Of a stretch of 60,755 nucleotides of DNA, positions 28,729 through 53,152 are shown piece after piece. The notes beneath the pieces are model-generated. The model did no database searches, was not told the origin of the DNA, and saw nothing but the letters and a program-made list of their open reading frames with translations. Every line of letters starts with the position of its first letter. Position 1 is the stretch's first letter. The DNA comes from Phycisphaerae bacterium (GTDB lineage Bacteria; Planctomycetota; Phycisphaerae; UBA1845; PWPN01). Both the position numbers and the translations under genes were made by a program. The stretch spans positions 1 through 60,755 of the forward strand of contig JAGNEZ010000038.1 in the NCBI GenBank assembly GCA_018003015.1, read 5' to 3'.

Positions 28729-28737
28729 TATAATGGA
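28729..28737 (+). promoter_or_regulatory. Putative -10 element (TATAATGGA) of the exported peptidase-like gene
   Basis: A perfect TATAAT followed by GGA lies 32 nt before the start codon at 28769. The -35 region is weak. The same 9-mer occurs at four other promoter positions in the window. Confidence 0.5.
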
Positions 28738-28768
28738 ATTGCGTGTCACGGAGAACGGAGGGACAGCG

Positions 28769-30787: not shown

Positions 30788-30871
30788 GGGCGAATCGCCG
30801 CGCGACGATGTACGACCCGTCGTCGCCGGAACGGCCGCCGCTTCGCGGGCCCCTTCGTGGCGGGGTCATGA

Positions 30872-30896
30872 CGCCCCGGCGCTTTCCGGCCGGGCG
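30872..30896. terminator. Weak hairpin between two convergent exported-protein genes
   Basis: CGCCC...GGGCG with an inner GG/CC and a bulged C lies between the convergent genes ending at 30787 and 30900. It could be a bidirectional terminator, but there is no clear T run. Confidence 0.25.
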
Positions 30897-30899
30897 AGA

Positions 30900-33800
30900 T
30901 CAGTTCGCGCAGTCGGAGTTGGCCGGCAGTCCCGCCCCGCTCATGCATCGGAGAAAGACCTCCAGGTCGGCCGCATCGACATAGGGGTGCGGGTCGCGGT
31001 CGAGGTTGGCCCCGGTGCACTCGGTCGGGAGACTGGTCTGGCCTACGGCGGTCAGGCAGGCCTGCAGGTGGGCGAAATCGTCCATGTCGACATCACCGTC
31101 TAGGTCGAAGTCGCCGGGGACGGCCACGATCTCCTCGCACTCATCGGGAATGCCGCTGTGATTGATGTCTTTGCTGGATCCGGCGGCGATGTCGCATTCG
31201 TCGGGCAGGCCGTTGTGGTTGCAGTCCTCGCTTGTGCCGCCAATGATGTCCTGATCGTCGGGCGTGCCGTTCCCGTTGCAGTCGCCCGCCTGGACCACGC
31301 CCCAGACTTCCACGTCGTCGATGTTCCAGCCGCAGTAGCGGCGGGTCTTGTCGGTCGTGCCCATCGTCCATCGGAGACTGACCGTCGGCTGATGGTCGGC
31401 GAAAGCGGAGATGTCGAGTGCCTGGAAGGACCAGCCAGCGTCGACAACCTCTTGAGACGGGTTCTGCCAGACGGTCACCCAGTTGGCGCCGTCGCTGCTG
31501 ACCCGGACAGAGGCGTGGTCATAGCGGTTCTGCTCGACGCCGAGCCACCGCCAGAAACGCAGCGTGACCTGGCTCAGGTGACTGCAGTTGAGCACCGTCG
31601 TGGTCAGGTGTTGCTCGGCCAGGCCGCTTTCGTAGTCGCCGGCCAGGTTGTAGCCGTACACGTTGCCGCCGGTATACCCCGCGGTCGGATCTCTCGTTCC
31701 GTATTCCCCGCCGGCTCCCAGGGGAGTGCCGAAACCCCACAAGCCTTCGACGTTCCAACCCGGATCGCTGTCCATCGGGAACACGTAGACCGGTTCCGGT
31801 CCGCCCACATTGATCGACACGGTCGCCGGGGCCGAGTCTTCGCCGTCATTGACGGTGAACTGGAAGGAGTCCGTCCCAGCGTAACCGATCGCCGGCAGGT
31901 ACTGGACGATCTGGCCGTTGCCGGCCAGATGATAGGGTGCTGTCTGGATGACCCCGCCGAGCGGATCCCTGAGACTGCCCTGGGCGGGTAAGGAAGTGAT
32001 TGCATAGGTGAGTGCGTTGTCGCGCGGCGAACTGCCCGTGAGGGTGATGGCGACCGCGGTATGGACGCGGGTCTGCGCGCTCATTTCGTTGGCCACGGGC
32101 GGGGCAATCGTCCCGAGGAGGACGACGCGGTTGGAGCCGTCCACCGCGTAGCAGGCGAGCATGTTGGGCCGCGCGGCGAAGGCGACGTCCACCGGGCGGC
32201 TGAGAACGGTGCTGCCCGCATAAACGCCGGCCGGCTGGGTGTAGGTGGCCGTGGTCAGCCAGGAGTCGCCGGATTCGCTCAGCTGAAGAACCTTGCCAAG
32301 CCGGGCATCCGTCACCAGGAGCATGACGGTCCCAGTGGCGGGATGCTCGGCACTGGCCAAACCCATCTCGGTGACGTCGGTTGCATCCCCGACGGGGATA
32401 CTCACCGGGTAACCGGGCTCGATGGTGAGAGTCGTGCCGTCAAAGCTGAACAGGAAGAGCTTGGACATCCCACTTGAGCGGCGATCGAGCATGAAGAACC
32501 TGTCCGACGCCACGGGATGAGTGGCGATCGCCGCCGGTCGCGCAGTACTGTCGGCCGACTGCCAGATCCCGGCCGGGGCCGTCTCGGCGGTCCACACGAC
32601 CACGCGCCGGTTCCCGGTATCGGCGATGACAATGTACTCGTTACCACCGAACAGGATCGTGTCCAGGCCCCGGGCGTTACTCAACTCCCGCAGGGCCGCA
32701 TTGGTGCCCGGTCGACCCGCCAGCCGCGAGCCGCCGAAGCTCAGGCTCGTCGAACCGGCGGCGAAAACGGCGGCGTCGGTGATGATCAGGTCTTCGGTTA
32801 TTTGTGTAACCCGGGCGGAAGCAGCGGGCCCGTCGACCTGATCGCCTGGTTGATATCGTACGGCATCCTGGACGCTGTGACATTGGATCAGAAAGGGGGA
32901 TGACGTGGTGAAGGCCTTCGCGCTGAGGGTGGCAATGTCGTTGCGGACATCATAGCCGAAGCTGGGCGCGGTGGGGGGATTGACCACGTCGAATCGGTAG
33001 TCGGGCTCCATGTCGGAGAAGGCGAGCGTGGCATAGTACTTGCCGTCCACAAGCCGCGAGGGAACCACCTTGTTGGCGGTGTGGCCGAACCGGAAGTGAT
33101 AGAACAACTCCTGGTGGGGTGTCGTCCCGTCGAGGACCTGACACATGGGGTTCGCGATCCCCGCGTTGGCGGCCAGGAGCAGCCTGCCGTCTTTGCGGCC
33201 GGTGATGCCGCGCGCTCCACTGATGCCGGTGACCTGGACCATGCGAGGCAGGCTCTCGCCACTGCCGGTCACCTGGGTCACTTCATACGTTGCCCGGAAG
33301 CGGTTCGATCCGTAACTGTCGGCGGCGGCCATGTTTTGTGCAACGGTCAGGTTCTGGCCGGACGAGACGTACTCGCCGACCTGCGTACGGATGTAGGCCG
33401 GCTCCCACCGCCGGTAGATGCGATACGTAGCCGGGGAGGCCCCGGCGATGCCGAGGCTCACACTGTGTCCCTGGACGGCGGCTGTGAGCGTGAAGGCAGG
33501 TGCGGTTGCGCCCGGCTTGTAGTGGGTGTGGAAGTCCCAAGTCCAGGAGGCCTCGTCTGTCCAGGAGTGGCCCATGCGCGTGTGCTGACTGTGGGCCGCA
33601 GTCTCGCCGGTGCCGAGGATGGCACAGTCCTGATAATCACTGCCGATCTTGACCGTGTAGATCTGTGTGCCGGTCTGGGCGCCGACGCCTCCGCTGGTCG
33701 GCGGCGAGTAGTAGTGCTTGCGTCCGAAAGCGTCCGTGGTCGCCGGTCCCAGCCATGCCGTGGTCTCCCACCGGCCGTCGGCATCGGTGAGCCCGGTGGC

Positions 33801-35966
33801 GGCGGCGACGGTATTGCGTTCAGGCCAGAGTGTGATTTCGGCGCCGGGCACGGGGTCGCCGTCGCGATCAAGCACCCGCACAAACGTGCGGGCTGGGGCC
33901 AGCGTCCACCAGGCATCGATGCTCTTGTTGCGCACGCCCACGAGGGCTCGTCTCATCATCTCGCAGGCCGGCCAGGAAATGCGCGTATGACCCGAGCCGT
34001 AGCTGTCCGGCGGCCACATCCAGGTGCGGATCTGCACGGGCGTGCCGTCGGCCATGGTGGCCCCGCCGGTGAACACCGGGGACACGTAGTACTGGTACAG
34101 GTCGCCAACGGGATGGAAGAGGTGCCCCGTTTCGTGCAGTTCCGCGCCACCGTCGCCCCAGTTGAATCGCTCCCATCCCTGGTAGACACCCCACCAGCCG
34201 TCGAGCTCCCGCCAGCCCTCGTATTTGCTCTGCACCGCCTGCCAGGCGGCGTCGCGATCGGCCGCATCGTCGGGCCAGCCGAATTCGTAGCTGTCGAACC
34301 ACAGACGCTGCAGGACGTCCTGGCCGTCCTGGGTCTGCGATCGCTCCCACATGCACTGGACGGCGTCGGCGAGTTTGCGGCAGAGGTACTCCTTGCTCGG
34401 TGGGTCGCCCAGAACAGTGGGCTGCCGATCGGCCAGCGCGGCCTGATTGCGGAGGATGGGGTGGAAGGTGAGACCGTGCAGGGCCATCTCGTAGCGATTG
34501 TCCCGCCCATTGGCGTCGCCGTCGCACTCGATGACCGCGACGACCCACCGTTCTCCGACTGTCTCGACGTTGACCTTCTGCCAGGTGGCGCCGGTGCTCG
34601 CGGGAACAAGACTGTAGGGCCAGGGGAAACTGACCGCACGAGTCACGTAGGTGGGGCTGTTGCTGTTGTACGCCGGCAGGCTCTCGGTGAGCACCTCGTC
34701 GAAATCAGGGGTATCACATGTGCCCGGGTCGGTGTCTGCGTTGCGGTTCGGGCGGTTGTACCAGACCTTCAGCCGCACGCCGCTGGCCGGAACGGCGATC
34801 GCGCCGGTGTTATGGATGTTGATGGTGTAGGTGACGGTCTGTCCGTTTGCCGGCCAGCCGTAGGGACCGCAGGCGTCCTTGGTCGGGCTGCGATGAGCGA
34901 AGGCGATTGCGGCATCCCCCGCCGTGGCCATGCTCTGTCGGGCGTTGAGGTCGGTGTCGATGTAACCGAACAGGCGCCCGGCAGCGATGGCGGGGCGGCC
35001 GTCGGCAGTGGTCTCCAACCGGCCGGTCATCACCACCAGGCTGGAAGACCCTCCATTACCGGGCAGCCACTGACCGGAAAGCGCCTTGCCGTTGTACTCG
35101 ACCCCCGGCTTGTAGTTCTGCCCGGGCTTGGCCGGAGCCGCTCTCAGCTGGAAACTCCCAGCCGCGGACGCGAGCGTCAGAACATCGAAGCCGTCCTTTT
35201 CATAGTCCGCCGCCGTCAGGCCGTTCACCTGCAACCCAGGCAGATCAGTGGCCGCATCGGCGACCAGCGTGCTGAAACTGTTGGCGGTCGTCTGGTAGGA
35301 ATAGAAGACCAGCCGAGTCTGGCCGCCTTCGGCGAATGCCAGCGAGAGGAAATCGGTGTCTTCGTTCCAGAAATCGCCGCAGGCCAAGCCCAGGTACGTG
35401 CCGCTGATGCTTGGGAGGCTTGACTCAGCGGTCTTGGTCCAACTGACGCCGTTGACCGAGGCGGGGGGGGTGAGGATGACGATGCGGATGGTCGAGCCGT
35501 TCTGCATGGCCACGAGGAGTTGGTCCTTGCCCGATCGCCTGAGGTTGCCGGCCGTCGCGCCGAGGAACGTGCCGGTCACCGGGATGGCGGTGCTGGTGCT
35601 CTTGAGTGCCCATGGCCGGGTGCTGAAGCACTCGGGAGGCTCGTAGACCTTCACGGTCAGGTTGCCGCCGGACACGCTGACGGTCGCCAGGTACTCCTTG
35701 CCGAAGCTGGCGGGCCAGAAGTCGCCGACCGCGAGGCCGCCGCCGGCGACGTCCACCAGCACGGTACTCCGGTCAAGCCAGCGCGAAGGCCAAGTGTCAT
35801 TCTTGGCGTGGAGCGGCGGCTCGTAGACCACGAGCCTCCGAGTTCCCTCGCTGTCCTCGATCGCGGCCAGGTAGGAGAACCCGAAACCCCAGTGCTGGGG
35901 TCCGGCCCAAACCGGGTTGACCAGAGCCAAGACCATCGTGGCGACAACAACGTTGATCCTGCGCAT
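30900..35966 (-). CDS. Very large secreted putative metallopeptidase with dockerin-like tag
   Basis: About 1688 residues. Signal peptide (MRRINVVVATMVLALVNPVWA); GGGGGAG upstream of ATG 35966 fixes the start. N-terminal 330 residues have repeated FG-GAP-like units (LAVGDFWPASFGKEYLATV, LACGDFWNEDTDFLSL). A CARDB-like domain is followed by AELHETGHLFHPVGDLY with H611-E-x-x-H615, a zincin motif. Then come an Ig-like segment (VRVLDRDGDPVPGAEITLWP), NHL-type repeats (ARGLDTILFGGNEYIVIADTG), a cadherin-like Ig fold (YAGTDSFQFTVNDGEDSAP) and a carbohydrate-binding-like beta-sandwich. The C-terminus has DFDLDGDVDMDDFAHLQACL and ANLDRDPHPYVDAADL, the same dockerin-like subtype as the neighbouring 672-residue protein. 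Substrate unknown. Confidence 0.75.
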   Translation of the reverse strand: MRRINVVVATMVLALVNPVWAGPQHWGFGFSYLAAIEDSEGTRRLVVYEPPLHAKNDTWPSRWLDRSTVLVDVAGGGLAVGDFWPASFGKEYLATVSVSGGNLTVKVYEPPECFSTRPWALKSTSTAIPVTGTFLGATAGNLRRSGKDQLLVAMQNGSTIRIVILTPPASVNGVSWTKTAESSLPSISGTYLGLACGDFWNEDTDFLSLAFAEGGQTRLVFYSYQTTANSFSTLVADAATDLPGLQVNGLTAADYEKDGFDVLTLASAAGSFQLRAAPAKPGQNYKPGVEYNGKALSGQWLPGNGGSSSLVVMTGRLETTADGRPAIAAGRLFGYIDTDLNARQSMATAGDAAIAFAHRSPTKDACGPYGWPANGQTVTYTINIHNTGAIAVPASGVRLKVWYNRPNRNADTDPGTCDTPDFDEVLTESLPAYNSNSPTYVTRAVSFPWPYSLVPASTGATWQKVNVETVGERWVVAVIECDGDANGRDNRYEMALHGLTFHPILRNQAALADRQPTVLGDPPSKEYLCRKLADAVQCMWERSQTQDGQDVLQRLWFDSYEFGWPDDAADRDAAWQAVQSKYEGWRELDGWWGVYQGWERFNWGDGGAELHETGHLFHPVGDLYQYYVSPVFTGGATMADGTPVQIRTWMWPPDSYGSGHTRISWPACEMMRRALVGVRNKSIDAWWTLAPARTFVRVLDRDGDPVPGAEITLWPERNTVAAATGLTDADGRWETTAWLGPATTDAFGRKHYYSPPTSGGVGAQTGTQIYTVKIGSDYQDCAILGTGETAAHSQHTRMGHSWTDEASWTWDFHTHYKPGATAPAFTLTAAVQGHSVSLGIAGASPATYRIYRRWEPAYIRTQVGEYVSSGQNLTVAQNMAAADSYGSNRFRATYEVTQVTGSGESLPRMVQVTGISGARGITGRKDGRLLLAANAGIANPMCQVLDGTTPHQELFYHFRFGHTANKVVPSRLVDGKYYATLAFSDMEPDYRFDVVNPPTAPSFGYDVRNDIATLSAKAFTTSSPFLIQCHSVQDAVRYQPGDQVDGPAASARVTQITEDLIITDAAVFAAGSTSLSFGGSRLAGRPGTNAALRELSNARGLDTILFGGNEYIVIADTGNRRVVVWTAETAPAGIWQSADSTARPAAIATHPVASDRFFMLDRRSSGMSKLFLFSFDGTTLTIEPGYPVSIPVGDATDVTEMGLASAEHPATGTVMLLVTDARLGKVLQLSESGDSWLTTATYTQPAGVYAGSTVLSRPVDVAFAARPNMLACYAVDGSNRVVLLGTIAPPVANEMSAQTRVHTAVAITLTGSSPRDNALTYAITSLPAQGSLRDPLGGVIQTAPYHLAGNGQIVQYLPAIGYAGTDSFQFTVNDGEDSAPATVSINVGGPEPVYVFPMDSDPGWNVEGLWGFGTPLGAGGEYGTRDPTAGYTGGNVYGYNLAGDYESGLAEQHLTTTVLNCSHLSQVTLRFWRWLGVEQNRYDHASVRVSSDGANWVTVWQNPSQEVVDAGWSFQALDISAFADHQPTVSLRWTMGTTDKTRRYCGWNIDDVEVWGVVQAGDCNGNGTPDDQDIIGGTSEDCNHNGLPDECDIAAGSSKDINHSGIPDECEEIVAVPGDFDLDGDVDMDDFAHLQACLTAVGQTSLPTECTGANLDRDPHPYVDAADLEVFLRCMSGAGLPANSDCAN

Positions 35967-36097
35967 CGAGTCCGCTCCCCCGAGTTCATTTCGCCGTTCG
36001 TGCCCCGGATCGATCAGTTCCCTTTGGCATCGAGAAACGAGGTCCACGGCGGCAGCGCGCAGCCCTCGCCACCTCGCTGCTTATCGGCGCGGACGGC

Positions 36098-39000
36098 TCA
36101 TTGGCAGTCCGGCGAGATCGGCTGCAGCGGGTTGCGGCTCAGACACCGCTGAAAAGAGCCGAAATCGGCCTGGTCCACATCGCCGTCCTGATCGTAGTCG
36201 GCCGCTCGGCAGTCGAAGAACTGGTCGCTGACCAGAATCGTGCCAAACGGAATGGTCGGACCGGAGAAACACGGCGTGAAGTAAAGCTCCAGGTCGTCTC
36301 TGTTGACGTGTCCGTCGAAGTTCAGGTCGAAGCTGGTACCCTGCAGCGACATGACCCATAGGGTGGTGTTGTACGGGCTGGTCGGTTCGCCGCCCTGCTT
36401 GATGTACACCCTGCCCTTGTGGGTGGCGGCGCTGGTGCCACTACCGGTCGCGGCAGGCAGCACACCGGTCGTGAACTGCTTGCTGGCAATGTCGTAGATT
36501 GTGAAGGAGGAGCTGGGGTCCGGTCCAAAACCCTCCTGGTTGCCGTTGGCTCGGCCGGCGACAATGAGCAGGCCGCCGTCGCTCCCGATACCACAACTCC
36601 ACTTGGCCGGCAGAGGAGCCATGGCCGAGCCGTATCCGGGTTCGAAAGGAAGCTGGCCCAGGTCGATGGCCGGACTCTCCTCGTGGGTCCACTCGTACCA
36701 TTCCGGCCCGGTCTTGGTGTTGAGCCTGAGATCCTTCGGGTCGATCGACCACAGCCGATCGCCATCGCCGGCCGGGCTGGTCTGCCAATCGTTCTTGATG
36801 CCGTAGAGGATGTCGTTCACCGCCGTCATCTGGACAACGCGGCTGAACCAGCCGGGGTCCCGGCCCTCGAGTCCGGTGAACGCGGCCCGGAAACAACTCG
36901 GCGCGTCGAGGTCCTTGAGATCGGCCACCGTGGTCGGACCGCCCTGGTTGACCGCCGCGGCGTGGCTGTTTCCGTAGAGGTAGTCGCCGATGACGGTGAA
37001 CCCGGTATGGCCGAAGTTGCGGTTGGCATGGACCGACCACGTGTCCGTCGCGATGTCGTAGGTGCACAGGCCGACATCACGGTTCGTGACCAGCGTACCC
37101 TGATCGCCCAGGCCCGGGTAGAAAGCCAGGGCCCCGTCCGGGTCGCCGTCCGGATCGCTCGGTGCGTCAGCAAGGGGCAACCAGCCGTGCCCGTCGGGCG
37201 AGCGATGGAGCTGTCCGTCTGCGGTCAGGTAATAGAGGTAATAACCACCAGAAGCCAATGAAGTGCCGTAGCTGCCCTCGATTGGCGTGCTCATCTGGAC
37301 GAACTGCCAGCAGCCGTTCCTGTAGGGAGGCGTTTCCGGTCCGTACACCGCTGTCAAGGTCTTGGGGCCGTTGGCCGCCAGCGTAGCGCTCGGATTTTCG
37401 ATCGGCGTCTGGCCTTCGACATCCCACCGGACAAACGTCATGTGCGGCACGTACGGAGCTGCCAGGGTCACCGTCTCCCCGCTGCCGAAACTGACGGTGA
37501 ACGGGGTCATCGCCGTCTCGCCACCGCTGCAATCCCTGGGCGTGTAGGCAACTACCACCGGATCGCCAGGACCTTCGGCGCCGACGTTGAACACTACCGG
37601 CGTGTCGCACCGCGACTGGTACATGGCCGTGGCGGTGACAGGGGCGGCGACCTGGAGCGAGAGGAGTTGGCCGGTCGTGGCAGGCTCCGCTCCGTCGACG
37701 GACCAGCCCAGGAAGGCGTAGCCTTTCAGGATTGGAGCAAGGAGGCTGACGTACTCCTGATAGCCGACCCTGCGAGTGAACGGTGTTGTGCCGGTGTTGT
37801 TGCCGTCGCAGTCGTCGGAACTCATGTAGACGGAGACGCCGTCCGTCGGAGCGCTGTTGACCGTCAGCGTGGATGCCATCGCGCAGGGATCCGCCAGCGA
37901 GACGGACATGACCCACAGGTCGGTGTTGGGGTCGTTGTCGGGGCTGGGTGAGCTGCCGCGCTTGATGTAAACCTTGCCCTGATGGAAAGTGGCCGAGGTG
38001 CCCGAACCGGTAGTGCCGGGCAGGTTCTTCACCGTGAAAGTGCCACCGGCAACGTCATAGAGGGCATATTGGCTGCTGGGTTCGCCCCAGCCTTCGTGGT
38101 TGGAGGGCGAGCGGCCGGCGATGATCAGCAGACCGCCGAGGCCGCCGATCTCCGCTGACCAGCCGGCCGGCAGGGGCACAATCGCCGAACTGTAGCCCGG
38201 CTCAAACGGCAGCGGGCCCAGGTCAATCGCGGTACTCGTGTTGTGCGTCCAGTCGTCCCAGTTGGGGCCGATGTACTGGTTGGGAACGATGGCCGAAGGG
38301 TTGATGACCCAGAGCCGGTCGCCGGTACCGGCCGGACTGGTCCAGTCGTTCTTGATGCCATAGAGCATGCCATTCACGGTCGTCATCTGCACGGCTCTGC
38401 TGAACCAGTCGGCAGCCTCACCGAGAATGCCGCCGGTTCCGGTGACAAAGGCGGCACGCTGGCAAGTGATCGCGTCCAGATCCTTCAGGTCCGCAATCGT
38501 GGTCGGCCCGCCCTGGTTCACCATCGCGGCGTGGGCGTTGCCGTACAGCGTGTCGCCAACGACCACGTAGCCAGTATTGCCGAAGTGGCGATTACCGTGG
38601 GCAATCCATGTGTTGCTCGCAATGTCATAAGTGTGCAGCACACGCTCGCCCCCGCCGAGGTCCCGACGCGTGATGAGTGCCCCTTGAGCGCCAAGACCCG
38701 CGTAGAAGGCCAGCGATCCGCAGTCGGCTCCGTCGCCGCCGCCGGGGGCGCTGGCCAACACGAACCAGCTTCCGGCCGTGCTCGGGTTCGGACAGAACAG
38801 CTGCCCGGTGTCCCTCTTGAAGTAGTACAGCCGAGTGCCATCCGAAGCCAGCGATGTTCCGAACTCGCCTGGTTCGGGAGTGCTCTCAACGGCAAACTGG
38901 ATCGAAGTGGCCGCGGGATTCACGAACACCTCCCACGTCTTGGTGTCCGATCCGGAGGCATTGGTCGCCGTGGCCTCGACGGTGAAGCTCTTGCCCAGAT

Positions 39001-39733
39001 CGCCGGCGGATGGCGTCCAGCCGCTGATCCTGCCGGTCGGGTCAATGACCATGCCGGCCGGATGCCGGCCGAGCGACCAGGTTACGTTCGCACCCTGGTC
39101 GAGAGTCAATTGCCGGGTGTACTCCACCGTTGCCCGTGCGGTGTCCATCGAGTTCACCGGATGAATCACCGGCGGGATCTGGTAGAAACGAAGGGTGTCA
39201 ATCGCGAACGAATAGGGCGTGTTGGCGGACGCCCATTCAACCGCATCAAGACGGAAGTAGTAGGCGGTGGCTGGATCGAAGCTCGTGGTCCCATCATAGT
39301 AGCTGACCTCGTCCGCAGGGGTGACATTCTTGGAGATCGTGGTCCAGCCGGCGTTGGCCGGTACGCTGATCGAGTAGGCTGCTCGGGCTTTCACCGTCCA
39401 CTGCGTCCCGTTCCAGATCCCCGCGTACACGCGGAGCCAGAAACCAACCGTCCCCGTGGCCGGACCTTCGTGACGAACGGTGACATCGAACCTGTTGGAA
39501 GTCAGGTCCAGCGTGGTTCCGCTCTGATAGGAGGCGGGATAGATTCGCAGCAGGGCATAGCCCGTGTCGCTGACGTCGCATCGGACCGCCGTGTCGCCAT
39601 CGATCAGGTACGGAGCCCCTGCAGGGGCAACGTTCTCCAGCCCGGCCAGCGAGGAAAAGTCGTTCAGATAAGTGTCGGCGGCCGCGACCCCGACCAGTGA
39701 CCACACCAGAACCGCGCTCGTTAGACATCGCAT
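36098..39733 (-). CDS. Secreted protein with two propeller-like modules and dockerin-like tag
   Basis: 1211 residues. Signal peptide (MRCLTSAVLVWSLVGVAAA), AAGGAG upstream of ATG 39733. Residues 20-170 form a beta-sandwich with an expected ligand face. Residues 190-275 are a putative Ig domain (WSLGRHPAGMVIDPTGRIS). Residues about 280-610 and 810-1130 are two copies of a kelch-like module sharing TSLAS.G, DIA..TW, VNQGGPTT.ADLKDLDA, LYGIKNDW, DLG.LPFEPGY and GSGTSA..H.G.VYIK. Between them are two InlB-B-like repeats (TPFT...F.GW.V.G). The C-terminus is a dockerin-like pair (DLNFDGHVNRDDLELYF, DYDQDGDVDQADFGSFQRCL). No catalytic residue set is apparent; a binding role is plausible. Confidence 0.75.
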   Translation of the reverse strand: MRCLTSAVLVWSLVGVAAADTYLNDFSSLAGLENVAPAGAPYLIDGDTAVRCDVSDTGYALLRIYPASYQSGTTLDLTSNRFDVTVRHEGPATGTVGFWLRVYAGIWNGTQWTVKARAAYSISVPANAGWTTISKNVTPADEVSYYDGTTSFDPATAYYFRLDAVEWASANTPYSFAIDTLRFYQIPPVIHPVNSMDTARATVEYTRQLTLDQGANVTWSLGRHPAGMVIDPTGRISGWTPSAGDLGKSFTVEATATNASGSDTKTWEVFVNPAATSIQFAVESTPEPGEFGTSLASDGTRLYYFKRDTGQLFCPNPSTAGSWFVLASAPGGGDGADCGSLAFYAGLGAQGALITRRDLGGGERVLHTYDIASNTWIAHGNRHFGNTGYVVVGDTLYGNAHAAMVNQGGPTTIADLKDLDAITCQRAAFVTGTGGILGEAADWFSRAVQMTTVNGMLYGIKNDWTSPAGTGDRLWVINPSAIVPNQYIGPNWDDWTHNTSTAIDLGPLPFEPGYSSAIVPLPAGWSAEIGGLGGLLIIAGRSPSNHEGWGEPSSQYALYDVAGGTFTVKNLPGTTGSGTSATFHQGKVYIKRGSSPSPDNDPNTDLWVMSVSLADPCAMASTLTVNSAPTDGVSVYMSSDDCDGNNTGTTPFTRRVGYQEYVSLLAPILKGYAFLGWSVDGAEPATTGQLLSLQVAAPVTATAMYQSRCDTPVVFNVGAEGPGDPVVVAYTPRDCSGGETAMTPFTVSFGSGETVTLAAPYVPHMTFVRWDVEGQTPIENPSATLAANGPKTLTAVYGPETPPYRNGCWQFVQMSTPIEGSYGTSLASGGYYLYYLTADGQLHRSPDGHGWLPLADAPSDPDGDPDGALAFYPGLGDQGTLVTNRDVGLCTYDIATDTWSVHANRNFGHTGFTVIGDYLYGNSHAAAVNQGGPTTVADLKDLDAPSCFRAAFTGLEGRDPGWFSRVVQMTAVNDILYGIKNDWQTSPAGDGDRLWSIDPKDLRLNTKTGPEWYEWTHEESPAIDLGQLPFEPGYGSAMAPLPAKWSCGIGSDGGLLIVAGRANGNQEGFGPDPSSSFTIYDIASKQFTTGVLPAATGSGTSAATHKGRVYIKQGGEPTSPYNTTLWVMSLQGTSFDLNFDGHVNRDDLELYFTPCFSGPTIPFGTILVSDQFFDCRAADYDQDGDVDQADFGSFQRCLSRNPLQPISPDCQ

Positions 39734-39959
39734 CCGGAGATCTCCTTTTCACTGGTGGCGGGTCGGCAGACGGGTGCGTGGTCCTCAACTGGACCGATCC
39801 GCGATTCGGTCCGCCTCCTTACCCCTGCCCGTTTCTGCATCGATCGAGCTTCCAGAGCCCTCGATCCCAGTATGCCAGCATGCCGGACGGAATTCAAGCC
39901 GATGGAATATCCCACCCTCTATCGCCCAGTGGAGAATCGGGTGACAAGCTGGAACTCGT

Positions 39960-42900
39960 CTACTCCCAGTTCAGCCCATCCACCCACAGGTCGAACGGAT
40001 CGTTCCCCATCGAATCGAACTGCAGGGTGATGCAATCGACTTTCCGGAGGCTCATCGTCTCTGCTTGGACTTGTTTCTTGGCCGTCTGGGCCTCCTCCGG
40101 GCTGAGTGGCTTGACCACCCAGAGATCATCATTGGTGGGAGCGTAGTTCATCCCGCCGCGCTTGATGAAGACCTTCCCCTGGTGGAATGCGGCCGACGTG
40201 CCCGACCCTGTCGGACCGGGCAGGTGCCCCAGGACGGTGTATCTAGCGGTGGCGATGTCGTAGATCGCGTAGCTGTCGGACGGTTGCCCGTAGCCCTCGT
40301 TGTTGCTCGGCGAACTGGCGGCCACGATGAACAAACCACCCTTGCCTCCGACCGCCGTCGACCAGTGGGGCGGCAGAGCGACCAGGGCTGAGCCGTGACC
40401 GACCTCGAATGGCAGGCTGCCCAAGTCGGTGACCGGCGTGCGGGCCTCCTTCCACTGTTTCTCGTCCCAGTGGAAGCCTCCGCCGAATGACGACGGCCTG
40501 TAGTCCTCAGGATCGAAGACAAACAGCCGATCGCCACTCTTGTCCGCCTCGCCAGGCTGGGGTGTGGTCCAGTCGTTCTTCATCCCGTAGACCCTGCCCG
40601 CCACCGCGACCAGCTTGGCCGCCCGGCTGAACCACCAGGCCGCCCCCCGGTCGCCCTTCAGGCCTTCCAACACCGTCCGCTCGTCCGTCGCCGTCGGCTT
40701 GGACAGGTCAAACCGGCTGATCGGTCCGCCGTAGTTGCCGCCCACCGCATGGGAGATGCCGTACAGGTAGTGCCCGACTACAGCCGTGCCATGACTCGGC
40801 GAGCACCATGTCGCCGTCCATCTCCAGGTGTCCTTCTCGATGTCGTACACAACGTAGCGGCCGGGATTCTGGCCGTGCTGGTCGCGCCGAGGGTCGGTGT
40901 GACGTACGATCAAGCTGCCCTTGCCGTCCGCCCCTTCCCCATAGGCGAGCATCTGGTTCTGCCAGCCGCCGGCGTCGCTTTTGAGATCGGCGGAGGGGCT
41001 CTTGCGACCGGTCCAATCCTTGCCGCTCTCCGAACGCCAGAGCTGGTCGCCGTCGGTCATGGCGCAGAACAGGTACTGGCCCGTCGAGACCAGCGACGTG
41101 TCCGACTGGCTCTCCATTGGCGTATCCACGGTCTCGAAACACATGGCGTTGTCAATGTGCGGCGGGACGGCGCCGTCGAGGCTTTCCGAGCGGATCCACT
41201 CATCGCTGCCGGCTAGCGGCACGGCCACCCGGAGCCAGCCATAGCGGGCTTCGGGATACGGCAGGTCGCCCAGGAGGTTACGCGGGTTCTTGTGGTACGC
41301 CGGCAGATAGGAGTAGGCCGCCTTCCCGCTGTGCAGACGGATGATCGGGTTGGGACCCTGGAAACCGCCGTTGTTGGGATTCTCGAAGCGGATCCACAGG
41401 GTGAGCGCCTTCTTGCCGGTTAGATCCCAGCCGGCGTTCCTGTCTTTCGGGAAAGTGAGAGTGACATCGGCTCCCTGGTAGGGATCGGGCCGCACGCGAA
41501 GGCTGGTCTTGCCCACGATGGCGTTCGCGTCATCGGTGAACCTGACCTTTCCCTTCTTGTCGGGGTCGTTGCCCATGCCCCAGCCCCATTGTGTGGCTTG
41601 CCCTTCGGTGGCGGATTCGGGTAGCTCCTCGATGACGTAGAAGTCCCGGAAGGCCAGCCCGGCCAGGAATCCGTTGCTGACCGTCAGGCTGACGCGGTAG
41701 AAGCCGGGCTTGTCGAAGGCGTGCTCGACCTTGGCCGTGGTGTACTCCTTGCCGGCCACATCCCACCGGAAGATCAGGGCTCGCCCGGCCTCGTCCTTGC
41801 TGCCCGAAGCGTCGAAGGCGACTCGCTCGCCGACCCGGGCCCGTGAAGGGCCGTCGAGGACAGCCTTGGGGGCGTTCTTGCCCTCTGGATCGGCCTGGCC
41901 CCGGACTAGGTTCGTGACTTCCTCCATGAACTCGTCCTGCTCCCTGTTGCCTCTGAAGGTGTTGTTGGCCAGGTACAGCGAGTCGGTGAAGCGGGCGAAC
42001 AGTCCCCACCGGTTGTTCTCCAGCCGGTTGTTCTGGACGATCAGGTGATACATCTTCCACTTGACGCCGCGGCTGCCAGCATCGCCGCGGAACACGATGC
42101 CGGCTCCGTTGTTGTCATGGCAGTAGTTGCCGTCGATGACCGTGTGACTGCCGGACCCGCCGACGATCACGATGCCTCCATGATTGAAGTCGGCCTCGGG
42201 GGCGTTGTGCTTGCCATCGGGAAGGCCGTTGAAAGCCGCTTCGTTGCCGATCAGCACCGTGTGATCCGAGCCGCCCAGCCAGAAGCCGTAACTGCAGTGA
42301 TTGGCCTTGTTGCGGATGAATGTGTTGCCCGGACTCCAGCTTTCGAAGCCGTTGTTGTTGGCATAGGAGCAGTCGTTCTCGATGAACACGTTCCCGGTCT
42401 GGACCCACCCGTTGAGTGGGCGAAGGAACACGCCATCGCCGCCGTGCGTGATGTCGTTGCGTTCGTAGAGATTGTCGTTGGAACCAGTCTCCATCAGCAC
42501 GCTGGTGGAATCGCGGGCATGGACCTCGCCGGGCTTCATCCGCAGGCCCCAGGACAGATTGTTGTCCCGGACCACGTTGCGGCATGCCAGCCACATCTTG
42601 AGGCAAACGTTGGAGCAATGCGAGAAATCGTTCTTCTCGATCAGGTTGTGGCTGGATTCCCACAGATCCAGACCGTTCCAGACATGGTTGGCCTTGTTGT
42701 TGCGGATGACGCACTTTTGCATGCGCGTCAGAATGATGCCCCCGTTGCGGTCACCGTCGCCCCAGCCGTAGTCCGGATCGTGGTAGTTGTCGGAGAAGTC
42801 GCAGCCCTCGATGGTCCATTCCGCCCCGTCGCGAGCCTCCAGGGCGCTGTTGAAGCCGCGGATCTTGATGTTCCGGATCGTCACCCTGGAACGGCCCTCG

Positions 42901-43133
42901 GCCAGGATGCCGACACCCACGAAGGACTTTAGATTGCCCGCCTTGCCCGGCCCCCGAAGCGTGGCTCCGTTGCCGTCAATCGTCACCCCGTCGGCCCGGA
43001 TGACCAATGGAGTGTCCAGAACCGCATCCTTGTCGAGCTTGAGGTTCTCCGTCACCACCCGGGGTGGACCCATCTGCTGGGCAAACGCCGGAATCGTCAA
43101 CAGTGCGGCAATGAGCAAGACGGCGTACGGCAT
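39960..43133 (-). CDS. Secreted right-handed beta-helix protein with PKD domain and propeller-like module
   Basis: About 1057 residues. Signal peptide (MPYAVLLIAALLTIPAFA); AGGAGA is 4 nt before the ATG at 43133. Residues 40-420 are parallel beta-helix repeats of the pectate-lyase/NosD type (VTIRNIKIRGFNSALEA, NLIEKNDFSHCSNVCLKM, GNTFIRNKANHCSYGFWL). Residues 430-520 are a PKD domain (VAFDASGSKDEAGRALIFRW, FYRVSLTVSNGF). A beta-sandwich of carbohydrate-binding type follows. Residues about 663-1008 are a third copy of the kelch-like module present twice in the next gene (LYGISHAVGG, VYGMKNDWTTP, DLGSLPFEVGHGSAL, GSGTSAAFHQGKVFIKRG). There is no dockerin-like tag. A polysaccharide lyase or binding role is inferred only from the fold. 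Confidence 0.78.
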   Translation of the reverse strand: MPYAVLLIAALLTIPAFAQQMGPPRVVTENLKLDKDAVLDTPLVIRADGVTIDGNGATLRGPGKAGNLKSFVGVGILAEGRSRVTIRNIKIRGFNSALEARDGAEWTIEGCDFSDNYHDPDYGWGDGDRNGGIILTRMQKCVIRNNKANHVWNGLDLWESSHNLIEKNDFSHCSNVCLKMWLACRNVVRDNNLSWGLRMKPGEVHARDSTSVLMETGSNDNLYERNDITHGGDGVFLRPLNGWVQTGNVFIENDCSYANNNGFESWSPGNTFIRNKANHCSYGFWLGGSDHTVLIGNEAAFNGLPDGKHNAPEADFNHGGIVIVGGSGSHTVIDGNYCHDNNGAGIVFRGDAGSRGVKWKMYHLIVQNNRLENNRWGLFARFTDSLYLANNTFRGNREQDEFMEEVTNLVRGQADPEGKNAPKAVLDGPSRARVGERVAFDASGSKDEAGRALIFRWDVAGKEYTTAKVEHAFDKPGFYRVSLTVSNGFLAGLAFRDFYVIEELPESATEGQATQWGWGMGNDPDKKGKVRFTDDANAIVGKTSLRVRPDPYQGADVTLTFPKDRNAGWDLTGKKALTLWIRFENPNNGGFQGPNPIIRLHSGKAAYSYLPAYHKNPRNLLGDLPYPEARYGWLRVAVPLAGSDEWIRSESLDGAVPPHIDNAMCFETVDTPMESQSDTSLVSTGQYLFCAMTDGDQLWRSESGKDWTGRKSPSADLKSDAGGWQNQMLAYGEGADGKGSLIVRHTDPRRDQHGQNPGRYVVYDIEKDTWRWTATWCSPSHGTAVVGHYLYGISHAVGGNYGGPISRFDLSKPTATDERTVLEGLKGDRGAAWWFSRAAKLVAVAGRVYGMKNDWTTPQPGEADKSGDRLFVFDPEDYRPSSFGGGFHWDEKQWKEARTPVTDLGSLPFEVGHGSALVALPPHWSTAVGGKGGLFIVAASSPSNNEGYGQPSDSYAIYDIATARYTVLGHLPGPTGSGTSAAFHQGKVFIKRGGMNYAPTNDDLWVVKPLSPEEAQTAKKQVQAETMSLRKVDCITLQFDSMGNDPFDLWVDGLNWE

Positions 43134-43315
43134 GTTCTCTCCTTGCGGACTCGCCAACAGAACCTGCGACCCGCGGTGAGGCGATCTCCTCGGGACAGGC
43201 TGTGTGCCTCACCTGTTTCTCAGTCTCCTGCCCGTGCTCACTCGGCGACCGGTCCTCCGCCTCGCTCACGGCCTGCGACCGATAGCGGAACGCGGCTCTC
43301 ATCAAGCATGGCTCG

Positions 43316-44509
43316 TCACTTCCTCCCGTCCCCGCATCGATCCCGAACCTTGGCAAAAGCGTTCATCGCCCGGTCAAGGTCCTCCCGGCTGTGAGCTGCC
43401 GAGATCTGCACGCGGATCCGGGCCTTGCCCTTGGGAACCACGGGATAGCTGAAACCGATGACGTAAATGCCTTCCTCGAGCATCATGGCGGCCATCTTCG
43501 TGGCCAATACCGCGTCGCCGAGCATGATCGGGGCGATCGGATGCTCGCCGGCCGGAATGCTGAACCCCCGATCCGCCATGCCCGCCCGGAATACCTTGGC
43601 GCTCGCCTCCAGCCGGTCGCGGAGTTCCGTCGAGCCGGAGACGATCTCCAGGGCCTTGAGCGTCGAGGCCGCCACGGCCGGAGCAAGCGTGTTCGAGAAC
43701 AGGTACGGCCGGCTCCGCTGCCGGAGCAGATCAATGATCTCCTTGCGACCGCTGGTGTAGCCGCCGGTCGCTCCGCCGAGGGCCTTTCCGAAGGTGCCGG
43801 TCAGAACGTCGATCCGCCCGACGACGCCGCGGTGCTCATGGGTGCCCCGCCCGGTCCGGCCGATGAAGCCCGTGGCGTGCGAGTCGTCCACCATGACGGC
43901 CGCATCATGCTTGTCGGCCAGCTCGCAGATGTCGGCCAGCGGGGCGATACTGCCGTCCATCGAGAAGACGCCATCCGTGGCGATCATTCTCATGCGGGCC
44001 CCGGCCGCTTCCTTGAGCTTGGCTTCCAGGTCGGCCATGTCGCAGTTCCTGTAGCGATAGCGCTGGGCTTTGCACAGCCGAACCCCGTCGATGATGCTGG
44101 CGTGGTTGAGCTCATCGCTGATGATCGCGTCCTGCTCGCCCAGCACGGTCTCGAACAGCCCGCCATTCGCGTCCCAGCAGGAGCTGTACAGGATCGTGTC
44201 CTCGGTTCCCAAGAACTTGGTGATTGCCGCCTCGAGCTGCTTGTGTAGGCCCTGCGTGCCACAAATGAACCGCACGCTCGAGAGCCCGAAACCCCACCGC
44301 TTCAGCCCGGCCTGGGCAGCTTCAATCAGACGCGGATCGTTGGCCAGACCGAGGTAGTTGTTGGCGCAGAAGTTGACCACTTCCTTTCCGCCTTGAACCG
44401 CAATCCGCGAACCCTGGGGCGTCGTAATGACCCGCTCCTCCTTGTAGAGGCCACTCTGGCGAATCTCGTCCAGCGTCGCACTGACGTGGCTCTTCATCGT
44501 CTTGAACAT
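43316..44509 (-). CDS. kbl: Glycine C-acetyltransferase (2-amino-3-ketobutyrate CoA ligase)
   Basis: 397 residues, the usual length for Kbl (E. coli 398). An alpha-oxoamine-synthase fold-type I PLP enzyme: [58 protein letters not shown] and the PLP-lysine motif [15 protein letters not shown]. It cleaves 2-amino-3-ketobutyrate with CoA to glycine and acetyl-CoA. It lies downstream of tdh, whose product is its substrate, with a gap of about 170 nt that contains a perfect GC hairpin. Confidence 0.95.
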
Positions 44510-44563
44510 CGGCGTGTCCTTCCTTTCTGGGCGTGCCTGTCCACCTGCCGGAAAGCCGCATGG

Positions 44564-44582
44564 CGCCGGCGTCTCGCCGGCG
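44564..44582. repeat. Perfect 8-bp GC hairpin in the tdh-kbl gap
   Basis: CGCCGGCG, loop TCT, CGCCGGCG. The plus-strand core CCGGCGTCTCGCCGG resembles the minus-strand core of the hairpin at 833-851 (CCGGCATCTTGCCGG), suggesting a family of interspersed palindromes. Confidence 0.5.
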
Positions 44583-44678
44583 GGCCTTCAGTGTTCCGAG
44601 ATGCCCTCTTCATCACCCGCCCTGCGGCCAAACCCCGCAGCCGCCTTGCCCATCTGCCCCACGCTCCACTTCCGCGGC

Positions 44679-45707
44679 CTACTTCTCCGACCAGTCCAGA
44701 ACCACCTTGCCCGAGTTGCCCGAACGCATGACCTCAAAGGCTCTCTCGAACTCGGTATAGTGAAAACGGTGAGTAATGACCGGGGCGATGTTCAAGCCGG
44801 ATTGGATCATCACCGTCATCTTGTACCAGGTCTCGTACATCTCGCGACCGTAGATGCCCTTGATGGTCAGGCCGTTGAAGACCACGTAGTCCCAGTCGAT
44901 CTCCGTTTTGGGTAGAATGCCAAGCAAAGCGATCTTCCCGCCGTGGCACATGTTGGCGATGAGATCGCGGAACGCGGCCGGATTGCCCGACATCTCTAGA
45001 CCGACGTCGAAACCTTCCTGCATGCCGAGCTGCTTCTGCACCTCCTTCAGCGTCCCCTCCTTGACGTTCAGCGCCACCGTGGCCCCCATCTTCTTGGCCA
45101 GGGCCAGCCGGTACGGGTTCATGTCCGTGACTACGACGTACCGAGCCCCCGCATGCTTGGCGATGGCCGTGGCCATGATGCCGATCGGCCCCGCCCCGGT
45201 GATCAGGACGTCCTCGCCCAGGACATTGAACGACAGGGCACTGTGGGTCGCGTTCCCGAGCGGGTCGAAGCTGCTGAGAAGCTCGAGCGGAATGTGCGGG
45301 TCCGCCGCCCAGACGTTGGTCACCGGGATGCTCAGGTACTCCGCGTAAGCCCCCGGCCGGTTGACACCCACCCCAGCCGTGTTCGGACACAGGTGGCGGC
45401 GACCCGCCAGGCAGTTCCGGCATCGCCCGCACACCAGGTGCCCCTCTCCGCTGACCAGATCGCCATGCTTGAAGTCGTGGACGTTGGCCCCCACCTTCTC
45501 GACTATGCCGACAAACTCGTGCCCGACGGTCATGGGCACCGGAATCGTCTTCTGGGCCCAGGCATCCCAGTTCCAGATGTGCACGTCCGTGCCGCAGATA
45601 CTCGTCTTGAGAATCCGGATGAGGACGTCGTTGATACCCATCTCAGGGACAGGCACTTCCTCAAGCCATAGACCTTCACGTGGATACGCCTTGACTAACG
45701 CTTTCAT
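44679..45707 (-). CDS. tdh: L-threonine 3-dehydrogenase
   Basis: 342 residues from the ATG at 45707, matching E. coli Tdh (341). Medium-chain Zn-dependent dehydrogenase: catalytic Cys38 in [22 protein letters not shown], structural zinc [15 protein letters not shown], and Rossmann [22 protein letters not shown]. It oxidises L-threonine with NAD+ to 2-amino-3-ketobutyrate for Kbl. GGGAGG lies about 11-13 nt upstream of this ATG; an in-frame GTG at 45713 is better spaced and adds two residues, so the exact start is open. First gene of the tdh-kbl pair. Confidence 0.95.
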
Positions 45708-45760
45708 CTTGTGCACAGCCACCTCCCGAACGCAACGGCCAGGCACCGGTCGGCCTGCGG

Positions 45761-45780
45761 ATCCTGCCAGCCGGCAGGAT
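45761..45780. repeat. Perfect palindrome in the tdh leader
   Basis: ATCCTGCC-AGCC-GGCAGGAT, an 8-bp stem with a 4-nt loop, lies between the predicted tdh promoter and start codon. It could be an operator, an RNA hairpin or an interspersed repeat. Confidence 0.45.
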
Positions 45781-45835
45781 GGCCCGGTGTCCGCCGGAGA
45801 GAGCCTCGGCCGTCTTCCGGTATATTGTGCCGGAG

Positions 45836-45844
45836 TCCATTATA
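45836..45844 (-). promoter_or_regulatory. Putative -10 element (TATAATGGA) upstream of tdh
   Basis: Reads TATAATGGA on the minus strand, about 130 nt upstream of tdh. No strong -35 is seen at 17 nt. Confidence 0.4.
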
Positions 45845-46184
45845 TTGAACACGCGGTCCCCCGAGTTGTCGAGAATCCGCGAGAATTCGAACACTTCGGG
45901 TTTCCTCGGTATGCCATCTTGTGCGCAAATCAGCCGGCTGTCAACTGCCGGGAAGAACCGGGACTTGCCGGCGGCCGTCGCCCTCGCCAGGGGACGCTCC
46001 GTCGCTGCCCGAGCGACGCCGCCCAGGCCACATTCATGCGATCGCCCACCACCCCATGCTCGGTTGGCAGGAAGGATGCTGGGTTGGCAGCAGCGGCACC
46101 ACGACCGCCGGCTCTTCATGGGTGCCTGGATCCACACTGCCGAACGGTCCGCCGTGAGTATGTTTGCCCTTCGCCTCGCCGGCC

Positions 46185-48497
46185 CTAATAGTCCACCCCG
46201 TATTCCTTTCCACTGGTGAGTGTGATCGGCCGGCCGGCGACCGTGAGTTGCACATCGGGTCCGAGGGCCCCCAGGTCTCTGATGCGGACCTCCTCCGGGT
46301 CAATGGAAAACAGCAGCCGGTGTTCGCGGTACTGCAGGTTGAATTGCATGCTTCGCCATGGCCTCGGAAGCCGTGGATTCACACGCAGCCCCGTCTCCGA
46401 GAGGCAGACTCCGCCGAAACCGAAGACGGCCGCCATCCAGGCGCCACCCGCCGCCGTGCCGTGCAGGCCGGCATAGGTGTCCTTGCGCCCGGTCAGTTCC
46501 TCGTCGATGTCCGAACCAGCGCAGATCAGAAACTCGCGGTAGGCGCGGTCCATCTCGCCCATCTCGGCCGCCATGATCGCGTTGAGCGCGAAACTCATGG
46601 ACGAGAAGTTCATGCTCTTGTCTTTGTAGAAGTCCCAGTTGGCCTTCAGCACGTCCCGATCAAAGTCGTCACGGAACAGGACCATGGCCATGACCACGTC
46701 CGGCTGGTTGAGGGCCTGGTAGGGGAACACCGTCTCAAACCAGACCTTGCGCCGGGCCAGCAGGTCGTCCGGCACGGGCTTGAGCTTGTAGAACCCCTCG
46801 CATTGTTCATACACCTTCGTGGCCGGATCGAACAGCAGAGTCAACCGGTCGGCCACCCGGAGCCATTGGGCCGGCTCATCCTCGGCGAGGCCCAGACGTC
46901 GTACGCACTCCGCGTGTGCGACCGGATCGTCACGCCGCATGCCCTCGAGCACCTCAGCCGCCCACCGGAGGTTGCGTGTAGCCAGGTAGTTGGTATAGAA
47001 GTTGTTAGTGCTCTCGCAGTGGCCTTCGTCCGGCCCGGCCACATCGAAGATGTCGTAGGCGTCGCGGCCGCTGTCGTACCGGGCCCGGGACGCGAGGAAC
47101 CTGGAGGTCTCCACCAGAATGTCAGCACCTTGACGGTGCAGGAAGGTCCGGTCGCCCGTCGCCCAGTAATACTGCATCACCGCGCAGGACACATCGCTGT
47201 TGATGTGAATGTTGGTGTGCGTGAAACGCCACCACTTGCCCAGGCACTCTTCGCCGAACGGTCCCGCCTGCCAGGCAAACTTGGCTCCCTCGTAACCGAG
47301 TTCCTTGGCGATCCTCCGGCCCGGCTCCAGGCCCAGCCATCGCCAATGGAGACAATGACGCGCGACCTCAGGATCCGTCAACGTGTAGACCGGAACGATG
47401 TAGGTATCGGTATCGTAGAACGTGTTGCCCTGGTAGTACTCGCCGGTGAGCAATTTGACCGGCACGCTCAGCTTGTCGGTGTGCCGGGGGGCGGCCGCCA
47501 GAATGTGATGGAGACAAAAGCGAAGGTAACGCTGGGCCACCTCGTCTCCCTCGATTTCGACGTCGGCCCGGTCCCAAGCCCGCTCCAGCGACATCGTGTC
47601 AACTTCGGCGAGGGCCCCGAGCTCACACTCGACGGCGCCGCTGATCTCCTGCTCCAAATCCACGTCCACCCCGAGGCGAGCGTCTTCCGAGGAGGTCAGG
47701 ACGACGTACCGGTCCAGAACAATCGGTGCTTCAGGCGGCTCCTCGAACTCGTAGACCGTGTAAACGGCGTCGTGCTCGATCACGGCTTCGGGCTCACTCA
47801 CCGGAGCTACTTCCACCAGTCTGTTGACCACGACCATGTCGATCTCGTGCTTGCGGACAAGGGTGCGCGCCCGAAGATGACACGCCTCCGCCGGCTCCGC
47901 CGTTTGGTCGACAACCACGAACTGGCGTTCACGCGTGGTGTTCGAGTAGACACGGCCGTCGATGCCGCTCAGGATGCGAACCCGCCTGCGGTAGTTGAGG
48001 GGAGTCACCTGGTAACGCATGTACACCCGGTGGGGGTGTCGCTGAGAGGCAAAACGCATCATGAGGATGCGCGTGACTTGCCCTCGTTCATCCTCGTGAT
48101 CGAACCGGTATCCGTAAACCCCCGACGACAGGTTCAGCGTCTGGTTGAAATGCGAGATCGTGCCCCGGGTGAGCGTCAACTCGCGGTTGTCGACGAACAC
48201 GCGAACCAGCAGGGGGTTCGGCAGATTGGCCACGGCCGGACTGCGGCCGGCAGAGTCAAAGTGCCGGGCGTCGAGATAACGCCGTTCCTCGCTCGAGACA
48301 CGGATCTGGCCGAACATGTCCAGCTCGTCGTAGATGCCGTTGATCAGTGTCACCGGGCTGTACCCGTCGCGGTCCTCCGCCAGATTGCCCTTGATCCCCA
48401 GATACCCGTTGGAGATGGTGAACACACTGTTGTGCTGGCCCAACGCGTGAGGGTCGTGCCGGGTGTTGATGATGAGCCAGCTCGTCTGGGGAGCCAT
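46185..48497 (-). CDS. GH65 family disaccharide phosphorylase
   Basis: 770 residues, typical of GH65 (maltose, kojibiose, trehalose and nigerose phosphorylases). N-terminal beta-sandwich begins FTISNGYLGIKGNLAED; the (alpha/alpha)6 barrel contains KLLTGEYYQGNTFYDTDTY, AKFAWQAGPFGEE, HINSDVSCAVMQYYWATGD and VAGPDEGHCESTNNFYTN, with the catalytic acid Glu491 in GPDEGH. It would split an alpha-glucosyl disaccharide with phosphate, releasing beta-glucose 1-phosphate. GAGG 6 nt upstream of ATG 48497 supports the start. It follows the HAD gene by 8 nt, so the pair is an operon. The exact disaccharide cannot be read. Confidence 0.93.
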   Translation of the reverse strand: MAPQTSWLIINTRHDPHALGQHNSVFTISNGYLGIKGNLAEDRDGYSPVTLINGIYDELDMFGQIRVSSEERRYLDARHFDSAGRSPAVANLPNPLLVRVFVDNRELTLTRGTISHFNQTLNLSSGVYGYRFDHEDERGQVTRILMMRFASQRHPHRVYMRYQVTPLNYRRRVRILSGIDGRVYSNTTRERQFVVVDQTAEPAEACHLRARTLVRKHEIDMVVVNRLVEVAPVSEPEAVIEHDAVYTVYEFEEPPEAPIVLDRYVVLTSSEDARLGVDVDLEQEISGAVECELGALAEVDTMSLERAWDRADVEIEGDEVAQRYLRFCLHHILAAAPRHTDKLSVPVKLLTGEYYQGNTFYDTDTYIVPVYTLTDPEVARHCLHWRWLGLEPGRRIAKELGYEGAKFAWQAGPFGEECLGKWWRFTHTNIHINSDVSCAVMQYYWATGDRTFLHRQGADILVETSRFLASRARYDSGRDAYDIFDVAGPDEGHCESTNNFYTNYLATRNLRWAAEVLEGMRRDDPVAHAECVRRLGLAEDEPAQWLRVADRLTLLFDPATKVYEQCEGFYKLKPVPDDLLARRKVWFETVFPYQALNQPDVVMAMVLFRDDFDRDVLKANWDFYKDKSMNFSSMSFALNAIMAAEMGEMDRAYREFLICAGSDIDEELTGRKDTYAGLHGTAAGGAWMAAVFGFGGVCLSETGLRVNPRLPRPWRSMQFNLQYREHRLLFSIDPEEVRIRDLGALGPDVQLTVAGRPITLTSGKEYGVDY

Positions 48498-48505
48498 AGG
48501 TGACC

Positions 48506-49897: not shown

Positions 49898-50056
49898 ATC
49901 GTTGATGTTGTAAGGCGGTTGGCTCCGGTTTTCAAAGGAACACCTCGGCCGAGACGACGCGGTTGGATCGCCATGCAGCCACCAATGCCCGTTCACCGGG
50001 GATCTGATGCCCGCACTCTTTCAAAGGCTCGGAGGCGATGGTATCTTCTCTCGTCA

Positions 50057-53147: not shown

Positions 53148-53152
53148 CAGCT

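Follow-up and report, generated by a model that had tools for sequence, protein, structure and literature searches.

The window analysed here (contig JAGNEZ010000038.1 of the Phycisphaerae bacterium assembly GCA_018003015.1, taken at its full length of 60,755 nucleotides) carries two adjacent genes, A and B, whose products share a module of about 335 residues. The module occurs twice in protein A (A1 and A2) and once in protein B (B1). It is an undescribed and rare kelch-type beta-propeller of secreted planctomycete proteins, and its family has no name. The parts of the two genes are given below; other genomes and loci carry our own G and L numbers.

39960..43157, minus strand: protein B, 1065 amino acids from a TTG (open reading frame); the internal ATG at 43133 (MPYAVLLIAALLTIPAFAQ) looks like the better start.
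41892..43079, minus strand: right-handed parallel beta-helix of B (Pfam Beta_helix, E 4e-23; model).
41670..41876, minus strand: PKD domain of B (Pfam PKD_4, E 6e-13; collagenase PKD domains matched).
41178..41603, minus strand: first part of the beta-sandwich of B that the propeller interrupts (model; it closes up in propeller-less homologues).
40101..41177, minus strand: propeller module B1, nested in the beta-sandwich (BLASTP, model).
39963..40100, minus strand: helix and last two strands completing the sandwich after the propeller, ...LRKVDCITLQFDSMGNDPFDLWVDGLNWE (model; conserved in filled and empty homologues).
36098..39733, minus strand: protein A, 1211 amino acids, secreted as judged by eye from its hydrophobic N-terminus MRCLTSAVLVWSLVGVAAA, with two propellers (open reading frame, BLASTP).
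38942..39733, minus strand: N-terminal part of A, apparently a signal, a probable jelly roll and an Ig-like stretch (by eye).
37892..38941, minus strand: propeller module A1 (BLASTP).
37346..37891, minus strand: linker of A with divergent repeats of the InlB-B / Listeria-Bacteroides type (E 2.5e-4 and 4.5e-4, under the Pfam cut-off).
36338..37345, minus strand: propeller module A2 (BLASTP).
36098..36346, minus strand: dockerin-like C-terminus of A (Dockerin_1, E 0.011, under the Pfam cut-off).

In BLASTP comparisons, A1 and A2 share 58% identity over 330 amino acids (E 1e-121; 58-60% range), A2 and B1 share 43% over 341 amino acids (E 1e-68), and B1 is 41-44% identical to each of the A copies; the whole of protein A matches protein B with an E value of 9e-61. 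This bears out the first-pass annotation, which had reported three copies in two adjacent genes within a span (36345-41145) that contains all of them. The motifs it had listed are found at corresponding places: TSL (residues 293 and 824 of A, 687 of B), YG[IM]KNDW (458 and 977 of A, 857 of B), DLGxLPFE (504 and 1024 of A, 911 of B) and GSGTSA (576 and 1097 of A, 984 of B). Two were described more loosely. The SHA or AHA followed by GG is present as NAHA, NSHA or ISHA, with a few residues before the GG, and the best candidate for a vaguely stated three-residue tryptophan segment is a conserved W-F-S-R. The search for further copies that the annotation had proposed gave none elsewhere in the organism's own genome, and rare homologues in others.

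Residues 495-1065 of B (571 residues) were modelled with AlphaFold2 from an alignment of 18 rows, with a mean predicted local distance difference test score (pLDDT) of 88.6 and a predicted template modelling score (pTM) of 0.87. According to Foldseek and VIA-align, residues 175-525 of the model group with kelch propellers. Among the 50 matches listed, the kelch domain of NS1-BP aligns with a Z score of 24.2 and a root-mean-square deviation of 2.7 A over 258 residues, and the others include LZTR1 (Z 22.9), plant specifier proteins (Z 22) and Keap1/KLHL domains (Z 21-22). On the predicted structure, the module is thus a kelch-type beta-propeller, in agreement with the propeller reading of the first-pass annotation, and it can be read as six four-stranded blades closed by the N-terminal strand at 178-184 (strands counted from DSSP of the model). 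It resembles the kelch propellers of KLHL proteins, NS1-BP, LZTR1 and the thiocyanate-forming and epithiospecifier proteins in its fold (Z 21-24), the four-stranded blades read from the model, a blade signature such as GGLFIVA...YDIxxxxY/W and its candidate ligand loops DA and BC. Unlike them, it is secreted and bacterial, shares only 12-16% identity with them, has conserved loop residues of its own, matches no Pfam kelch model above the cut-off and, in B, is nested in a beta-sandwich.

None of the Pfam, NCBIfam and PDB sequence profiles claims the module. A profile of the module searched against PDB sequences gave no significant match (best E 0.11 with 3 rows and 0.49 with 21 rows). The match to a characterised enzyme family that would have made the repeats a plain domain duplication was looked for and not found, and a literature search for kelch propellers with beta-helices in Planctomycetes returned no paper. 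Galactose oxidase (family AA5), which appears among the Foldseek matches, likewise has a propeller beside a beta-sandwich. In that enzyme the sandwich precedes the propeller, and copper is held by two Tyr and two His. The order of the sandwich differs from that in B, and since only one His is kept in at least 18 of the 21 modules compared, a copper-oxidase reading is not supported.

The first-pass annotation overlooked that the B copy lies inside another domain. The layout of B is fixed (signal, beta-helix, PKD, beta-sandwich, propeller), and the stretch that follows the propeller, ...V..I..QFDS.G..PF..WIDGL..E, completes the sandwich, whose strands in the model (numbered as in the modelled piece) lie at 160-175 ahead of the propeller and at 548-570 behind it. 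In a relative of B from the same family (G303), ...WSREES is joined directly to GKVNLERIDAVSISLDSWGGDPFTAWIDGLCFE, with no propeller between. Close beta-helix relatives in the phylum sample fall into two size classes, 1061-1172 amino acids with the propeller and 688-764 without. All 11 complete propeller-less relatives, that of G303 included (686-764 amino acids in all), lack exactly the propeller and are joined at the same turn, and G290 has one protein of each form in the same genome. The propeller of B is therefore an insert within another domain, carried by some relatives and missing from others, and as such a detachable accessory module. Domain insertion is common, one account putting it at about 20% of multidomain proteins (PMC13114784); what sets this case apart is that filled and empty relatives of one family are available, even within one genome. 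On the best tree of the beta-helix, the filled and empty forms need three changes, and a single clade of propeller-bearing forms is also compatible with the data (approximately unbiased test, p-AU 0.148). The protein of G305 (L064) was left out of this tree, as it is truncated by the end of its contig. The joint of the propeller-less protein of G050 (L066), AGAPASPPDGDAGF, is longer than that of G303 and resembles the linker entering the propeller elsewhere, a leftover which hints that this protein lost its propeller secondarily.

Homologues of the module were found in 7 of 114 genomes of the order, 7 of 397 of the class and 5 of 294 sampled across the phylum (a borderline match of 50 residues accounting for one of the five), and a pattern scan of species genomes added one verrucomicrobial contig and one further planctomycete. 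Overall, this amounts to about 1-6% of the sampled planctomycete genomes plus one verrucomicrobial bin. Matches from G011, from a Parcubacteria bin and from a Candidatus Moraniibacteriota bin were set aside for their shortness or weakness; the last of these bins encodes a 2488-amino-acid protein with a weak module match (L026, G687:C3; E 5e-5). The tree of 21 modules from 12 genomes separates an A-type (10 modules) from a B-type (11 modules) with support of 100/99, and both types occur in several families, so A and B diverged long before the genus. A sister species in the same genus (Planctomycetota bacterium isolate RA.bin145) has all three copies in an identical layout, and A1 and A2 are each 95-96% identical to their own orthologues there. 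Of the 116 four-fold degenerate sites shared by A1 and A2, 55% differ, against 10-13% when either copy is compared with its orthologue; the duplication therefore predates the split of the two species. The recent duplication and the exchange between neighbours that the first-pass annotation had proposed both fail on these data, the module tree and the synonymous divergence together ruling out a recent exchange between A and B.

Conservation was assessed in the same 21 modules, taking polar residues kept in at least 18 of them (B numbering). The resulting set is H803, N808, S844, R845, K860, N861, D862, D876, R877, E918, E954 and K999; further conserved positions are Trp, Tyr and strand residues. 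In our own blade assignment, made on the model, H803 and N808 would belong to the BC loop of blade 3, W842-R845 to a DA loop, K860-D862 and D876/R877 to the BC loop of blade 4, E918 to a DA loop, E954 to the BC loop of blade 5, and K999 to the end of strand B in blade 6. The conserved polar residues are thus predicted to lie mostly within or bordering the DA and BC loops on one side of the propeller. In the kelch domains of KLHL proteins, it is these loops that bind the substrate (PMC10146909). Both types retain the conserved residues equally (9-10 of 10 A-type and 9-11 of 11 B-type modules), and it is mainly because the same loop residues are kept in the two types that we argue for one shared ligand site. 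The binding module of the first-pass annotation thus gains support indirectly only, through one conserved loop face common to unrelated architectures.

With moderate confidence, we regard the module as an accessory propeller of the kelch type, nested in the sandwich in B, that binds its ligand, most likely a glycan, on one face. The shared ligand is probably a glycan on account of the host proteins and the neighbouring genes. As a detachable accessory domain, it would carry on its DA/BC-loop face a polar pocket for this ligand. In protein B, the beta-helix would do the chemistry while the propeller grips or positions the substrate. Protein A, with its two copies set among InlB-like repeats and a dockerin-like tail at its end, would be a bivalent binder. 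Unlike the three copies, the predicted fold, the nesting, the propeller-less relatives, the conserved loop residues and the separate clades, binding, its glycan ligand and the division of labour with the beta-helix are what we infer.

The module is found in at least five different host architectures. Two propellers with InlB-like repeats occur in the A-type proteins of the window and of G294, and G380 has three propellers in one protein with such repeats between them (L042 8757-13688). In G297 a PQQ-type propeller precedes the module, and in G321 the module is part of a PKD-containing protein. The window and G294 have genes A and B side by side; in G321 the two are adjacent and divergent, and in G297 and G380 they are on different contigs. 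For the N-terminal part of protein A, Pfam gives no match, and its tail scores 16.3 bits against a Dockerin_1 cut-off of 22.9. The genome contains 76 dockerin-like matches and one two-cohesin protein, of 2099 amino acids with two cohesin and two dockerin matches (G000:C63:25194-26636; L079, L080), which together make a small scaffold system possible. Downstream of A, by 50 bp, lies a further gene.

30900..36047, minus strand: protein of 1715 amino acids with a zincin-like HETGH motif and a dockerin-like tail.

Secreted zincin-like proteins adjoin A-type genes in the window (28733-36047), in G294 and in G297 (a gene of 1361 amino acids), with loci at L035 5257-9339 and L040 6075-10352. Their motifs are HELGH, HETGH and HECTH (HExxH), and none of them has a Pfam peptidase match. 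In G342, the 1361-amino-acid type of G297 and the propeller form a single fused protein (about 900 residues of this type align, at 59-62% identity).

The first-pass description of B as a beta-helix protein is confirmed by the Pfam match given above. A model of this half (492 residues, alignment of 11 rows, pLDDT 88.1) has the alginate C5-epimerase AlgE6 as its best structural match (Z 34.9; AlgE6/AlgE4 Z 34-35), followed by phage tailspikes, NosD, inulin fructotransferases and a PL6 alginate lyase. B shares the right-handed beta-helix with AlgE/AlgG, the PL6 lyases and NosD (Z 29-35; alginate epimerases Z 30-35), but identity is 11-17% and B adds the PKD domain, the sandwich and the propeller. 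A profile of the beta-helix half matched PDB sequences in the PKD region only, and the predicted shared fold alone does not settle its reaction. Upstream of B lie genes of sugar metabolism and uptake, among others.

43316..48509, minus strand: glycine C-acetyltransferase, L-threonine 3-dehydrogenase and a GH65 family protein.
48506..49996, minus strand: HAD hydrolase, beta-phosphoglucomutase-like.
49022..54265, plus strand: sugar solute-binding protein, ATP-binding cassette (ABC) permease and DUF2961 (GH172-type) protein.

The DUF2961 protein matches PF11175 with an E value of 1.3e-77 and is a putative GH172 member by sequence, GH172 being the name given to the DUF2961 family (PMC8605356). A link to fructans through the GH91-like beta-helix and GH172 was rejected, as fold likeness alone is too weak. 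The set of GH65, HAD, threonine dehydrogenase and glycine C-acetyltransferase genes, the last two for enzymes of threonine breakdown, recurs around B (window 43316-54265; L059, L034, L043), together with genes of ABC sugar uptake and a DUF2961/GH172 protein. In the window, and likewise in G294, G297 and G380, GH65 is a neighbour of B. At the propeller-less B locus of G303, GH65 is again nearby, and so are a solute-binding protein, a permease and the DUF2961 protein, these three being 57-73% identical to their counterparts in the window; the sugar context therefore goes with B in either form rather than with its propeller.

Several observations weigh against a glycan-binding accessory propeller. 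Kelch domains often bind peptides rather than sugars. The Pfam kelch models stay under their cut-offs for protein A and for B1; the best Kelch_6 match has E 3.8e-4, and 4 of the 21 modules match this model at E up to 1. The assignment of the conserved residues to one face rests on the secondary structure of the model. Only 4 of the 11 B loci with a propeller, three of the four being in one family, have GH65, as does the propeller-less locus of G303, so the link to glycans is modest and goes with B in general. A catalytic role for the pocket would be equally conceivable, its His, several Arg and a Tyr being near-invariant. An enzymatic propeller, such as a lyase or hydrolase whose anterior face would carry the working His, Arg and Tyr as in PL24 and PL42, is nevertheless unlikely in our view. 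The His is near-invariant (20 of 21), as is the Tyr, several Arg and Lys are invariant or nearly so, and most of them lie on or beside the one loop face, while the PL24 enzyme LOR_107 works with His146 and Arg259 and has a conserved Tyr243 (PMC8377490). PL24, PL25, PL42 and GH145 are likewise secreted sugar-active propellers with such residues on their face (PMC8377490), but they have seven blades and no sequence similarity to the module was found, whereas the best matches of the module, among those listed, are kelch domains with mostly six. Sequence profiles match no enzyme, and the module is always part of larger proteins and absent from close B relatives, as accessory domains are. That PL24/PL25/PL42, GH145 and NanM are not among the 50 structural matches listed carries no weight as exclusion. 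It is distinctly improbable that a new sugar-active propeller, catalytic or handing on substrate, has been plugged into the conserved sandwich socket, making the beta-helix enzyme a two-site one whose empty-socket relatives do without.

The module could also serve as a protein-protein docking platform like the kelch domains of KLHL proteins, with partners such as zincin-like proteins or cell-surface components, which we consider rather improbable. The closest folds bind peptides via the same loops (PMC10146909), and the window, G294 and G297 each have an A-type gene next to one for a secreted zincin-like protein, the G297 type being fused to a propeller in G342. A docking face would however be expected to track its partner, and these loops are common to A- and B-types with differing neighbours; outside the genus of the window, such a zincin-like neighbour is present at none of the B loci examined. 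A structural filler, merely spacing or stabilising the repeats and conserved for folding, would fit a propeller that is dispensable in relatives of B and strung together with InlB-like repeats in A. We nonetheless hold it to be very improbable, as modules at about 35-55% identity across two phyla have kept their charged loop residues (KND, DR, E, K), which folding alone is not expected to do.

The accessory propeller described here adds an unnamed family, with a strongly conserved loop face, that recurs in several unrelated protein architectures. Protein B and its relatives are a natural experiment, in which the same beta-helix protein exists with and without a nested propeller, both forms being present in G290, and in which propeller-bearing (window) and propeller-less (G303) proteins have similar sugar-locus surroundings. 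A comparison of filled and empty B proteins would reveal directly what a nested accessory domain contributes.

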